NCBI RefSeq assembly: GCF_009789225.1 | Contig: NZ_WSTA01000001.1 | Location: 1-64,000, forward strand | DNA: 64,000 nt | Direction: 5' to 3' | DNA from: Agromyces seonyuensis | GTDB taxonomy: Bacteria > Actinomycetota > Actinomycetes > Actinomycetales > Microbacteriaceae | Part shown: piece after piece, positions 6,842 through 40,667 of the stretch | How positions within the stretch are numbered: position 1 is the stretch's first letter | Layout: each line of letters begins with the position of its first letter | Position numbers and translations under genes: made by a program | The notes under the pieces: model-generated | Database searches by the model: none | Told to the model about the DNA's origin: nothing | Seen by the model: the letters and a program-made list of their open reading frames with translations, nothing else

Positions 6842-6915
<74 letters not shown>

Positions 6916-7852: not shown

Positions 7853-8216
7853 TCGAGGTGATCGCTCCTGGAGAGCGATGTGAGGCCGCTGTTCAGAATT
7901 GTGAAGTGCCCCGTCCGCAAGCGCACCTCCACGCGTAGAGGGCGTGAAGAACGAATTGGTGACATTGGTCAAGTCCCGGAAACCTAAGGGTTTCCGGGAC
8001 TTTTGCAGTTGACGAAGTCGATCCTTCCCTCGAAAACCATCCGTGCTTCTCCTCGGTTCGCGAGCGAGGTGCGCATGCGGGGTCGTTCTGTCGGCACCAG
8101 CACTTCTGGCGCTGTGCCCGGCGAACTCCGCGGAACCTTCACGCCCCGCTGAGATGCGCGGGCTGACGGCTCCCTCGTTCCTCGGTGGAGCGGTGCCGTC
8201 GCGACCCGATGGGCGC
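7853..8216. other. Intergenic stretch between the accessory lipoprotein gene and the ABC exporter
   Basis: The 364-bp interval between convergent genes holds the second copy of the AAGTCCCGGAAAC hairpin (7971-8004). I see no coding sequence, RNA gene or promoter that I can support in the remainder. Confidence 0.5.
7971..8004 (+). terminator. Terminator hairpin (copy 2)
   Basis: The arms AAGTCCCGGAAACC and GGTTTCCGGGACTT flank TAAG and end in TTTT. It matches 6921-6954 at 32 of 34 positions. It can terminate the lipoprotein gene. Confidence 0.85.
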
Positions 8217-37144: not shown

Positions 37145-38350
37145 TCAGCGGGTCGGTGCGGAGGTCGCTGCGAGGGCGACATCCTCGGCGGGCGCCGCTG
37201 CGGGGGAGCGCCGTGCCCGTGCGGCGGCGACGGCCAGGACGACGACCGCGCTCGCCGTGATGACGGCGCCGATCCAGATGGGCGAGGTGTAGCCGAGGCC
37301 GGCGGCGATACCGAGTCCGCCGGCCCAGGCGCCGAGGGCGTTGCCCACGTTGAACGCGCCGATGTTGGCGCCGGATGCGAGCGTCGGCGCGTCGCCGGCG
37401 TAGGTCATGATCCGGCTCTGCAGACCGGGCACGGTTCCGAAACCGAACCCGCCCATGAGGAACAGCGCGACGATCGTGGCGGGCTGCGATGCAGCGAGCA
37501 GTGCGAAGAGCGCGAGCACGACGATGAGTGCGGAGACGAACCAGAGGAGGGTCGCATCGACGGAGCGGTCGGCGAGTCGGCCGCCGAGGAAGTTGCCGAG
37601 CACGAGTCCCGCGCCGAAGAGCACGAGCAACCACGGCACGGCGCCGGGCGCGAAGCCGCCGACCTCGGTGAGCGTGTAGGCGATGTACGTGAAGGCGCCG
37701 AACATCCCGCCGTAGGCGAGCACGGTGACGGTGAGGGAGAGCCAGACCTGGCCGGAGCGGAAGGCTCGGAGTTCGCTCCGCAGGCGCACCCGGTGCTCGG
37801 GTGCGGGGAGCTTCGGGACCAGCAGTGCGATGCCGATGAACGCGAGCACGCCGATCGCCGAGATCGCCCAGAAGGTCGAGCGCCATCCGAACTGCTGGCC
37901 GAGGAAGGTCCCGAACGGCACGCCGAAGACGTTCGCGGCGGTGAGGCCGGTGAACATGATCGCGATGGCCCGGGCCTGCTGCGCCGGTGCGACGAGGCTC
38001 GCGGCGACGACGGAGCCGATGCCGAAGAACGCGCCGTGGCAGAGTGCGGCGATGATCCGGCCGAGCATGGCGACCCCGTAGTCCTCGGCGAGCGCGGTGA
38101 GCACGTTGCCGACGATGAAGAGCACGACGAGACCGAGCAGCACGGGTTTGCGGGGGAGCCGGGTGGTGGCGGCGGTCAGTCCGAGCGCGCCGATGACGAC
38201 GCTGAGCGCGTAGCCGGAGATCAGCCAGCCGGCGGTGGTCTCCGAGACGGCGAAGTCGCTCGCGACCTCGGGGAGGAGTCCCATGATGACGAACTCGGTC
38301 AGTCCGATCCCGAAGGCGCCGAGCGCAAGGGCGATCAATCCTGGAGGCAT
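37145..38350 (-). CDS. MFS efflux transporter, DHA1 (AraJ/YdhP-like) family
   Basis: 401 aa with 12 helices. It starts PPGLIALALGAFGIGLTEFVIMGLLPEVASDFAVS, the hallmark of the AraJ/YdhP branch, and has GYALSVVIGALGLTAATTRLPRKP at loop 2-3. ATG 38350 is preceded by CAGGGAG. It is divergent from a MarR gene across 119 bp containing a duplicated motif, and is followed by an aldo/keto reductase. This suggests a MarR-controlled detoxification unit. Confidence 0.9.
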   Translation of the reverse strand: MPPGLIALALGAFGIGLTEFVIMGLLPEVASDFAVSETTAGWLISGYALSVVIGALGLTAATTRLPRKPVLLGLVVLFIVGNVLTALAEDYGVAMLGRIIAALCHGAFFGIGSVVAASLVAPAQQARAIAIMFTGLTAANVFGVPFGTFLGQQFGWRSTFWAISAIGVLAFIGIALLVPKLPAPEHRVRLRSELRAFRSGQVWLSLTVTVLAYGGMFGAFTYIAYTLTEVGGFAPGAVPWLLVLFGAGLVLGNFLGGRLADRSVDATLLWFVSALIVVLALFALLAASQPATIVALFLMGGFGFGTVPGLQSRIMTYAGDAPTLASGANIGAFNVGNALGAWAGGLGIAAGLGYTSPIWIGAVITASAVVVLAVAAARARRSPAAAPAEDVALAATSAPTR

Positions 38351-38380
38351 GGTGGTGCTCCCTGTTACCTTAGTGGGGTA

Positions 38381-38430
38381 GTTGCAGACGCGGGATATTG
38401 CGAGTGCGGGACATATCGTTGCACACGCAA
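38381..38430. promoter_or_regulatory. Repeated MarR-type motif between divergent MFS and marR
   Basis: GTTGCAGACGC (38381-38391) and GTTGCACACGC (38418-38428) differ at one position and are 37 bp apart. The second is part of the dyad TTGC-ACAC-GCAA (38419-38430). Binding by the adjacent MarR protein is inference. Confidence 0.45.
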
Positions 38431-38469
38431 ATAGTCCGCGCAAGCAAGTAATCTGAGGAGAGGCTGGCC

Positions 38470-38931
38470 ATGGGGATCGCCGACGACGCCGTCGAGGTGC
38501 GCGCACGCGGGTGGCGCACCCTTGCCGCCCTGCACGGGCTGATCGAGTCGACGCTCGAGCGCCGCCTCGGGGAGGCGGTCGGGCTTTCCGTGGTGGAATA
38601 CACCGTGCTCGACGCGCTCGACCGTCAGGACGGCTGGCATATGCGCATGCAGCAGCTCGCCGGGGCGACCGCGCTGAGCGCGAGCGCGACGACGCGGCTC
38701 GTGACGCGGCTGGAGGACCGAGGCCTGCTCACCCGTGTGCTCTGCGCCGACGACCGTCGCGGCATCTACACCGAGTTGACGCCCGCGGGCCGTGAGCTCT
38801 ACGAACGGGCACGCCCCATCCACGACGAGACGCTCGAGCGGGTGCTCGGGGAGGCGGCGGCACGGCCCGAGCTCGCGCCCCTCGTCGATGCGCTGCACGT
38901 CGTCGCGCCGTCGGAGGCAGCGCTCGCCTGA
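38470..38931 (+). CDS. MarR-family transcriptional regulator
   Basis: 153 aa with GAGGAGAG upstream of ATG 38470. Winged helix: VVEYTVLDALDRQDGWHMRMQQLAGATALSASATTRLVTRLEDRGLLTRVLCADDRRGIYTELTPAG (about residues 41-106), with the DRR wing motif. It is divergent from the DHA1 transporter, its probable target. Confidence 0.9.
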   Translation: MGIADDAVEVRARGWRTLAALHGLIESTLERRLGEAVGLSVVEYTVLDALDRQDGWHMRMQQLAGATALSASATTRLVTRLEDRGLLTRVLCADDRRGIYTELTPAGRELYERARPIHDETLERVLGEAAARPELAPLVDALHVVAPSEAALA

Positions 38932-39009: not shown

Positions 39010-40425
39010 TCAGACGTGCAGCGTCGTGGCCCCGCGCGAACGGGCGCGCTGGAGTTCCAGCTGCTCGTCGAACTGCGCCTGCCAGTCCGGGCTGAGCTCG
39101 ATGCCCTGGCTCTGGGCCTCCTCCACGGCCAGTTCCAGGGGGAACCCGAACGTGTCGGAGAGGACGAAGAGCTCGACCCCCGTCATGCCGCTGCCGCGGA
39201 ACCCCGTGAGCTGCTTGAGTCCCTTGCGGAGCGTCCGCCGGAACGACTGCTCCTCCTTGACGAGCACCCGCTCGACGTATTCCGCGTGCTCGGCGACCTG
39301 TGGGAAGTGCGCCTCGTAGATGCTCGCGATCGTCGGGATGATCTGCGGGAAGAAGTTCTCCTCGAGCCCGAGGTCGAACGCGAAGCGGATGGCCCGGCGC
39401 ACGAGCCGGCGCATCACGTAGCCCTGCGCCTTGTTGCTCGGTTTCACGCCGTCGACGGCGAGGAACGTCGCCCCGCGCAGGTGGTCGGCGATCACCCGCA
39501 TCGCGCGCTGCTCGTCGTCGTAGGACCTGCCCGAGAGCTCCTCGAGGCGTTCGATGATCGGCCGCAGCAGGCTGATGCGGAAGACGTCTGGCGTGTCCAT
39601 CGCCGCGGCAGCGATGCGGGCGAGGCCGCCGCCGTAGTCGACGTTGCGGCGGGGGAGCGGCTCGAAGCCGTCGGCGGCGCGCCGGTACTCCATGAAGACC
39701 GAGTTGCCGAGCTCGATGAAGCGCCCGCAATCGCAGTTCTGGTGGCAGTGCTCGCCGAACGCCGGGTCGTGCGCGATCTGCGGGAAGAGGTAGAACATCT
39801 CCGTGTCGGGGCCGCCGGGTTCGCCGATCGGCATGTCCTCGGCCTTGCCGCCGCGGCACCACCAGTTCTTCTTGCTGTAGAAGGCGATGCGGGCCCCGCC
39901 TGTGCCGACCGCCGCCGCGTGCTCCTCGGTGCCGAGATCGACCTGGTCGGTCGTCGCACCGGCCGCGGCGAAGAGCCCGGTCCAGATCGCCGCCGACTCC
40001 TCGTCCTTCGGGATTCCGTGCTCGGGATCCCCGCTGAAGCACGAGACGTAGATGCGGTGCGGATCGAGCCCGACCCGCCCGGTGAGGAACTCCCACACCT
40101 GGGGGATCTGCTCCTGCTTGAAGTAGTCGCCGAGGCTCCAGTTGCCGAGCATCTCGAAGAACGTCGTGTGGCGGTTGTCGCCGACCTCGTCGATGTCCTG
40201 TACGCGCAGGCAGGTCTGACTGTCGGCGAGTCGGCGACCCGCCGGATGCTCGGCGCCGAGCAGGTATGGCAGCAGCGGCTGCATCCCGCTGCCCGTGAAG
40301 AGCGTCGTCGGATCGTCGTGCGGCACGAGCGGCGCCCGTGGGATGACGACGTGGCCGCGTTCGACCATGAGTTCGAGGAAGGCGGATCGGATGTCGTCGG
40401 CGGTGAGTGGCTGAGCGCGCTCCAT
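39010..40425 (-). CDS. Alanyl-tRNA synthetase homologue lacking editing and C-terminal domains
   Basis: 471 aa from ATG 40425 (40443 is an alternative). It aligns from memory with the first about 460 residues of E. coli AlaRS and then stops. The aminoacylation domain has motif 2 NRHTTFFEMLGNWSLGDYFK (84-103) and motif 3 as GGGLARIAA (265-273, usually GLERI). The tRNA-recognition domain has GVKPSNKAQGYVMRRLVRRA and SDTFGFPLEL. Asn331 (PSN) and Asp424 correspond to the residues known in AlaRS to read the G3:U70 pair. The region around 205-235 differs: PGGPDTEMFY replaces the usual GPCGP..EI and is followed by a His/Cys cluster (H226, C227, H228, C231, C233), perhaps a metal site. There is no HxxxH editing domain. 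It is divergent from a tRNA-like RNA. It is unlikely to be the housekeeping AlaRS. Confidence 0.88.
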   Translation of the reverse strand: MERAQPLTADDIRSAFLELMVERGHVVIPRAPLVPHDDPTTLFTGSGMQPLLPYLLGAEHPAGRRLADSQTCLRVQDIDEVGDNRHTTFFEMLGNWSLGDYFKQEQIPQVWEFLTGRVGLDPHRIYVSCFSGDPEHGIPKDEESAAIWTGLFAAAGATTDQVDLGTEEHAAAVGTGGARIAFYSKKNWWCRGGKAEDMPIGEPGGPDTEMFYLFPQIAHDPAFGEHCHQNCDCGRFIELGNSVFMEYRRAADGFEPLPRRNVDYGGGLARIAAAAMDTPDVFRISLLRPIIERLEELSGRSYDDEQRAMRVIADHLRGATFLAVDGVKPSNKAQGYVMRRLVRRAIRFAFDLGLEENFFPQIIPTIASIYEAHFPQVAEHAEYVERVLVKEEQSFRRTLRKGLKQLTGFRGSGMTGVELFVLSDTFGFPLELAVEEAQSQGIELSPDWQAQFDEQLELQRARSRGATTLHV

Positions 40426-40479
40426 TTCCACATTCGACACCATGGGAGGCGCGGGTGTCGAGGTTCTCTCAGGCCCTGC

Positions 40480-40509
40480 TTGCCGGTTCGCGTTTCGTCG
40501 GGATAGGTT
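40480..40509 (+). promoter_or_regulatory. Promoter of the tRNA-like RNA
   Basis: TTGCCG (40480-40485) and TAGGTT (40504-40509) are spaced by 18 bp. Transcription should start near 40516, only about 3 nt before the 5' end of the tRNA-like fold at 40519. Confidence 0.55.
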
Positions 40510-40518
40510 CTCCTGCAC

Positions 40519-40569
40519 GGGGGATGCGGATTCAAGTCGCCTCGCCAGGTGCGATTCCTGGGTCCTCCA
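40519..40569 (+). ncRNA. tRNA-like minihelix RNA without a D-arm, G3:U70 wobble
   Basis: A 51-nt element. GGGGGAT (40519-40525) pairs with GTCCTCC (40562-40568) in a 7-bp acceptor stem; the third pair is G40521-T40566, the G3:U70 wobble that specifies alanine. The T-arm CCAGG-TGCGATT-CCTGG (40545-40561) abuts the acceptor directly, as in tRNA, and its loop matches TTCRANY except at T55. The discriminator is A (40569), the AlaRS preference. Between them GCGG-ATTCAAG-TCGC (40526-40540) gives a 4-bp, 7-nt-loop hairpin with TCA at the anticodon position; there is no D-arm. CCA is not encoded (CAC follows). A promoter ends just upstream and a terminator follows. Likely a substrate of the divergent AlaRS-like enzyme. 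Confidence 0.65.
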
Positions 40570-40610
40570 CACTGGCGCTGCTCAGCCGGAGCCGTGGAGC
40601 ACCGACAGCG

Positions 40611-40638
40611 GATGCCGTGCCCGGCTGGGCACGGCATC
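40611..40638. terminator. Strong hairpin between the tRNA-like RNA and the mannosidase gene
   Basis: Perfect 12-bp arms GATGCCGTGCCC (40611-40622) and GGGCACGGCATC (40627-40638) around GGCT. It can end both the plus-strand RNA from about 40516 and the minus-strand mannosidase operon ending at 40668. Confidence 0.85.
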
Positions 40639-40667
40639 CTCGGTTCTGGGCGATCCGGCCGCGAGGA

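Follow-up and report, generated by a model that had tools for sequence, protein, structure and literature searches.

A short RNA gene beside a truncated AlaRS gene

In the window, by which we mean the whole 64,000-nucleotide stretch of Agromyces seonyuensis DNA that was analysed, a small RNA gene lies between the minus-strand gene of a truncated alanyl-tRNA synthetase (AlaRS) paralog, here named AlaRS-lite, and another minus-strand open frame with a weak likeness to mannosylglycerate hydrolase (Table 1). With its 7-bp acceptor and its 5-7-5 T-arm, the loop of which has the form T..[AG]A, the RNA shares these parts with canonical tRNAs, and we refer to it as the mini-tRNA. Its 3' end encodes ACAC, not CCA; CCA addition would be needed, as it would for the four tRNA-Ala genes that were read in the same genome. 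The window also carries a gene for a Cmx/CmrA-like MFS exporter (37145-38506, minus strand; 349 bits against a 400-bit cut-off) and, divergent from it, one for a MarR-type regulator (38470-38931, plus strand).

Table 1. Features of the mini-tRNA locus, in window coordinates
Feature	Position	Strand	Remarks
Truncated AlaRS paralog (AlaRS-lite)	39010..40443	-	477 aa; ATG at 40443 or 40425
Promoter-like TTGCCG-N18-TAGGTT	40480..40509	+	9 nt upstream of the RNA; by eye
Mini-tRNA-Ala	40519..40569	+	51 nt; acceptor, hairpin, 4-nt linker, T-arm, A73; covariation in 39 loci
Acceptor 5' strand GGGGGAT	40519..40525	+	G3 (40521) pairs with U70 (40566)
Hairpin GCGG-ATTCAAG-TCGC, 4 bp, D-arm-like	40526..40540	+	TCA at 40532-40534
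Linker CTCG, 4 nt	40541-40544	+	between hairpin and T-arm
T-arm CCAGG-TGCGATT-CCTGG, 5-7-5	40545..40561	+	
Acceptor 3' strand GTCCTCC and discriminator A73	40562..40569	+	GTCCTCC at 40562-40568; 7-bp acceptor
Perfect 13-bp hairpin, terminator-like without T-run	40610..40639	+	3' of the RNA; by eye

The annotation tools that we tried do not see this gene. On the window, ARAGORN missed it and called only a tRNA-Pro at 6842, and Rfam at gathering scores likewise returned that tRNA-Pro and no family at the mini-tRNA; no tRNA was called by ARAGORN on seven related mini-tRNA loci or by Rfam on six. Several sub-threshold Rfam matches were taken as chance: nrdJ (E 0.009) at the 13-bp hairpin 3' of the RNA, two that span the RNA on the opposite strand, dauA (E 1.9) and CRISPR-DR29 (E 8), and mir-26 (E 0.22) at a hairpin beside the L080 copy, extending 12 nt into that copy. 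A strict promoter and terminator scan called neither at the window RNA, so the flanking elements in Table 1 rest on reading by eye, and the 13-bp hairpin may equally serve the convergent gene. When promoters were compared over all loci, the top-scoring hexamer pairing in the window was TTGCCG-N16-GATAGG, and a TTG-type first hexamer scored best upstream of 12 of the 13 loci that, like the window, have 19 nt between acceptor and T-arm, as against one of the 26 others.

Conservation of the fold

The same 51-nt RNA was present upstream or downstream of the gene in four of the first six AlaRS-lite loci, the window included, and covariance models found it also in places apart from AlaRS-lite genes and in other genera, Williamsia and Pseudonocardia among them. 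Our alignment A6 comprises 39 loci with 33 distinct sequences, namely the window, L078, L080 and 36 of the 40 other fetched stretches; outside it are two AlaRS-lite stretches without the RNA (L215 and L216) and two that did not pass the structural scan (L221 and L222). L076, which is the same place as L214, was left out of the neighbour and ACCA counts, and three weak covariance-model matches (L070, L182 and contig C80 of G000) were judged false.

Taken by itself, the window sequence gives weak folds. By minimum energy, the 54-nt RNA forms the acceptor and neither hairpin nor T-arm, with 9 of 200 shuffles as good; for 71 nt, 116 of 200 shuffles were equally good or better, and for the 19-nt insert, where the hairpin does not stand out from random sequence, 74 of 200. 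Such folds, and the decayed copy in genome G066, would agree with a pseudogene fragment of tRNA-Ala or tmRNA, or with a chance fold, and the alignment speaks strongly against both. Over the 33 distinct rows, 99.2% of the 528 cells are standard pairs, compared with 37-60% for slid pairing partners as a control; cells with changes on both sides number 76 against 14.8 in shuffles, a count reached in none of 500 shuffles, and both sides have changed at 11 of the 16 pairs. RNAalifold on A6 recovered the same structure. The acceptor and T-arm also differ from those of the four tRNA-Ala genes read and of the tmRNA that the genome carries, with other stems, next to tRNA genes (ARAGORN). A chance fold or pseudogene, a very improbable reading, is contradicted by compensatory changes in three helices over 33 distinct sequences, and a tmRNA fragment by the differing stems and the separate tmRNA gene; an mRNA-like domain with a tag would find no room in 51 nt. 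Judged by its covariation, the RNA is a genuine mini-tRNA, all three helices of which are kept by compensatory changes, and the suggestion of the earlier note that an arm-reduced tRNA-like RNA is encoded here in a bacterium is borne out over the 39 loci.

Within the acceptor, pairs 5-7 covary while G3:U70 is the same in 33 of 33 distinct rows, although this invariance, like that of A73, is partly built in by the scan that collected the loci, which itself required G3, U70 and A73. Every fetched R2 match with E up to 2.7e-6 passed that scan.

The hairpin and the question of decoding

The earlier note had read the hairpin as an anticodon-like arm, perhaps a relic, with a 4-bp stem and a 7-nt loop in which T33 and the triplet TCA would read UGA. 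The hairpin, T33 and TCA are present as described, and the arm is no relic: in the 33 distinct rows 100% of its cells are paired, and all four pairs are maintained through both-side changes. The loop behaves differently. In 13 loci the insert has 19 nt; of these, seven carry TTG at positions 34-36, three CTG, two ATG and one, the window, TCA, while 12 have a C at position 33 and the window alone has T33. The remaining 26 loci have inserts of 20-21 nt and 8-nt loops, 17 of which are CTATCGGG, and in this second group the T-loop is often 8 nt. An anticodon arm would have a 5-bp stem, a 7-nt loop, T33 and a fixed triplet; here the stem has 4 bp, and neither T33 nor the triplet is conserved, which is the outcome expected of a plain minihelix. 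That the RNA inserts alanine at UGA codons is therefore hardly credible, and we regard it as contradicted by the loop variation among homologs. The genome moreover has a tmRNA, an AlaRS and ordinary tRNAs, including tRNA-Ala with UGC, CGC and GGC anticodons and tRNA-Trp(CCA) (ARAGORN on 30 of the 50 tRNA matches).

At its 3' end the hairpin loop varies together with the start of the T-loop. The 3' end of the hairpin loop and the start of the T-loop read GGG/TTC in 22 of the 33 distinct sequences, GAG/TGC in nine, AAG/TGC in one (the window) and GAG/TTT in one. In ordinary tRNAs, G18 and G19 of the D-loop dock on the T-loop, and the paired variation, underlain by few independent changes, fits a hairpin that docks on the T-loop here too. 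Since the 4-bp stem directly follows the acceptor and the loop end tracks the start of the T-loop, the hairpin probably resembles a D-arm, in which case the RNA that had been called D-less would have its labels reversed, the missing arm being the anticodon arm.

AlaRS-lite

The only Pfam match of AlaRS-lite is PF01411 (tRNA-synt_2c, E 3.8e-101). Against the NCBIfam alaS model TIGR00344 it scores 350 bits, below the cut-off of 457, because the protein stops after the recognition domain; the matches end at profile positions 430-435, and the editing and C-Ala domains are absent. What remains appears intact at motif level, with the core motif RH.TFFEMLGN.S.GDYFK kept and with N337 and D430 aligned to N303 and D400 of the E. 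coli enzyme, the residues that read G3:U70 according to the available text of PMC10036535. The equivalents of both are invariant in 18 paralogs. A separate full-length AlaRS is encoded on contig C23 of the window genome.

Close paralogs (78-82% identity) are present in five of 59 other genomes of the genus, and 37 of 398 Microbacteriaceae genomes have a match at E 1e-90 or lower. When 54 sequences were placed in a tree, the paralogs from actinobacteria fell into two groups, both within Saccharibacteria AlaRS and distant from the eight host AlaRS included (branch 4.83), the group of the window joining L077 with support 98/92 and the second joining L144 with 99/86; the long-branched L096, from an Actinomycetes metagenome bin, falls outside both. 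The simplest reading of this topology is that AlaRS-lite was transferred twice, probably from Saccharibacteria, a direction which we infer from the tree. A literature search for Saccharibacteria, AlaRS and gene transfer found no paper. Elsewhere, AlaRS-lite lies close to the cobalamin gene CobG in Rhodococcoides fascians (L072, 9626-12205) and to CobI/CobJ in Rhodococcus sp. G-MC3 (L074, 7800-12671).

Distribution and gene neighbours

By covariance model the mini-tRNA is found in 39 of the 398 Microbacteriaceae genomes, a count from a search whose filters can lose weak matches and which includes G066, the decayed copy of which (L221) is not among the 39 loci. That copy (about 7933-7986) has a disordered region 3' of the acceptor 5' strand. 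Two genomes have two copies, Williamsia G823 with L213 and L214, which lie on separate contigs and differ in one linker base, and G197 with L190 and L191, of different sequence. A phylum-wide covariance search of 271 genomes matched only two, the window's own and G452. The G452 copy resembles that of Williamsia in its T-arm and comes with a terminator-like hairpin, and in its 16-kb stretch no AlaRS-lite, esterase or MprF gene was found. When genomes without a hit, including those of Rhodococcus and Plantibacter, were searched for the RNA next to AlaRS-lite or MprF, the sole match was the known copy of G132, and none of three Rhodococcus AlaRS-lite genomes had a match. A loose scan of CPR loci gave scattered weak matches only, judged by eye to be non-comparable.

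Three kinds of gene recur near the RNA. An esterase gene (Pfam PF00756) lies within 3.8 kb in 20 of the 39 loci, AlaRS-lite within 8.5 kb in 10, a count biased by the use of AlaRS-lite as the seed gene, and an MprF gene (Pfam PF09924) nearby in five; at least one of them is present in 24 loci and none within about 8.5 kb in 15, the stretches being of unequal length owing to contig ends. Six of the 20 esterase loci (L207, L208, L212, L214, L078 and L080) and three of the five MprF loci were reached via AlaRS-lite, the rest through genome-wide searches for the RNA. An esterase of the L208 type was not found in the window genome (E 1e-15, one query) but was found in all nine other genomes searched, two of which (G043 and G054) have no detected RNA. 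In the window stretch only AlaRS-lite accompanies the RNA, with neither transferase nor esterase linked to it.

The window arrangement, in which the RNA lies divergently at 112 nt from the AlaRS-lite coding homology, might suggest a tRNA mimic with a regulatory role, acting in cis on AlaRS-lite or its neighbours or by sequestering AlaRS. We consider this improbable, given that the RNA can lie upstream or downstream of AlaRS-lite and is not near it in 29 of the 39 loci, that ACCA is encoded in 22 of the 39, and that neither T-box nor any other Rfam family reaches threshold on the RNA.

The RNA, the esterase gene and the MprF gene follow one another in this order on one strand in L187, L199 and L214, MprF also adjoins the RNA in L078 and L080, and in Pseudonocardia the esterase and MprF genes lie on its other side. 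In L199 (9454-11988, genome G207) the MprF gene is broken by a single in-frame TAG. From the side of AlaRS-lite, a PF09924-type gene is in the stretch of six of the 13 distinct loci examined, those of Plantibacter, another Microbacteriaceae genus (L257), Williamsia, two Pseudonocardia and Rhodococcus rhodnii, where the gene is LysX; no RNA was detected at the first two. In R. rhodnii (L071, 9611-11008 and 12098-15580) AlaRS-lite is near a full LysX, an MprF-LysRS fusion.

Co-occurrence with MprF

Over the 398 genomes, PF09924 is present in all 39 that have the mini-tRNA, as against 146 of 359 others (about 41%; Fisher 1e-14), and in all 37 that have AlaRS-lite, as against 148 of 361 others (Fisher 6e-14); 10 genomes have both the mini-tRNA and AlaRS-lite (odds ratio 4.2, p 0.001), the Fisher p-values being overstated in that related genomes are treated as independent. 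No mini-tRNA match was obtained in 27 of the 37 AlaRS-lite genomes and no AlaRS-lite match in 29 of the 39 mini-tRNA genomes, and since most genomes thus hold one alone, neither strictly requires the other. MprF in turn does not require the mini-tRNA, as the 146 genomes with PF09924 and no detected mini-tRNA indicate. The only PF09924 protein of the window genome is encoded on another contig, C125. It is 51-52% identical over 381-426 aa to the AlaRS-lite-linked MprFs of Plantibacter (L260) and L257. With the Williamsia and Pseudonocardia proteins it shares 41% in alignments of about 700 aa; five further MprFs, that of L187 among them, have 38-42% over 313-382 aa, and LysX has 23%.

These data bear on the possibility that the charged RNA serves another aminoacyl-tRNA-dependent transferase, such as a Fem-type cell-wall or natural-product ligase, with the linkage to MprF incidental. 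Ala-tRNA is the substrate of Weissella FemX, which recognises it by its acceptor arm, as the available part of PMC4052509 has it, and 34 of the 39 loci have no MprF nearby. The full co-occurrence with PF09924 and the recurrent gene order and adjacency at the five MprF loci make this alternative unlikely in our view, and no Fem or PEARL gene was seen by eye among the neighbour clusters listed.

A proposed alanine carrier

The best explanation of these findings, which we hold to be reasonably probable, is that the mini-tRNA carries alanine outside translation, for lipid alanylation of the MprF type; its transcription, charging and transfer, and the role of the esterase, we infer from sequence. 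What was observed is that the structure is conserved, that the RNA has the identity elements for alanine, that AlaRS-lite keeps its recognition residues, and that the genes are linked and co-occur. It can be hypothesized that AlaRS-lite, or the canonical AlaRS where AlaRS-lite is absent, reads G3:U70 and A73 and attaches alanine to the 3' end, CCA having been added first where it is not encoded. With the D-arm-like hairpin packed on the T-loop and no anticodon presented, the alanine would be unavailable to decoding, and an MprF-type membrane aminoacyltransferase could pass it to a membrane lipid, phosphatidylglycerol or diacylglycerol, from which the linked esterase may take it off again. In C. 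glutamicum, the esterase gene pesT is linked to alaDAGS.

By analogy, charging by an acceptor-reading AlaRS followed by MprF transfer has a precedent at each step. The available text of PMC10036535 reports that AlaRS without the editing and C-Ala domains charges microhelix-Ala, and that of PMC4052509 that MprF1 efficiently recognises minihelix-Ala; in the accessible portion of PMC10580965, Corynebacterium AlaDAGS makes Ala-DAG, and a strain lacking both pesT and alaDAGS is named.

Relation to known systems

The proposed system shares the PF09924 transferase with MprF (AlaPGS), Corynebacterium AlaDAGS and LysX, the last of which likewise couples a dedicated synthetase domain with an MprF domain. 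All of these draw on cellular tRNA, whereas here its place would be taken by a mini-tRNA made for the purpose, with a truncated AlaRS as a protein of its own; the new part is a conserved minihelix that serves as carrier in nature. The tRNA-like domain of tmRNA also has an Ala-type acceptor with G3:U70, a T-arm and no anticodon arm, but the mini-tRNA has no mRNA part. Francklyn and Schimmel are said to have found in 1989 that an acceptor-type RNA with G3:U70 suffices for alanylation. Synthetic Ala minihelices and microhelices (Francklyn and Schimmel 1989, as cited in the available text of PMC9976931) resemble the mini-tRNA in this respect but are laboratory constructs, while the mini-tRNA is encoded in genomes, conserved, and has the additional D-arm-like hairpin.

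Among synthetases, the mini-AlaRS of Tupanvirus, in the part of PMC10036535 available, likewise does without editing and C-Ala domains and targets the acceptor stem; it is described there as of the eukaryotic group and without the N and D residues, both of which AlaRS-lite, branching among Saccharibacteria, keeps. The actinobacterial AcmF of the ascamycin cluster also has only aminoacylation and tRNA-recognition domains, but according to the text at hand of PMC12945691 is without most of the residues that activate ATP and alanine; the core motif of AlaRS-lite, compared at motif level, is kept. Armless mitochondrial tRNAs, for instance those of Romanomermis (PMC7730189, PMC12221289), are likewise strongly reduced. 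They are without D- and T-arms and are used in translation, whereas the mini-tRNA keeps the acceptor and the T-arm and is without the anticodon arm.

A literature search on Ala minihelices, AlaRS paralogs, mini-tRNAs, lipid aminoacylation and armless tRNAs, carried out on titles and the beginnings of abstracts with few subscription journals covered, returned no such bacterial RNA among the matches listed. Within the literature searched, this would make it the first minihelix-type tRNA known to occur naturally in bacteria. That AlaRS charges minihelices is a classic finding of the laboratory and a centrepiece of thinking about the origin of tRNA. If the proposal is true, an alanine minihelix that is encoded in genomes, conserved and served by a synthetase of its own would be the natural counterpart of those laboratory molecules and a possible source of an orthogonal tRNA-synthetase pair. 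It would also show, for one system, how membrane enzymes that consume aminoacyl-tRNA avoid competition with the ribosome. On balance, we lean towards the view that some free-living actinobacteria have a second aminoacyl-carrier system beside translation, in which an anticodon-less mini-tRNA and a separate, probably Saccharibacteria-derived AlaRS would supply alanine for the modification of membrane lipids and spare the translational tRNA.
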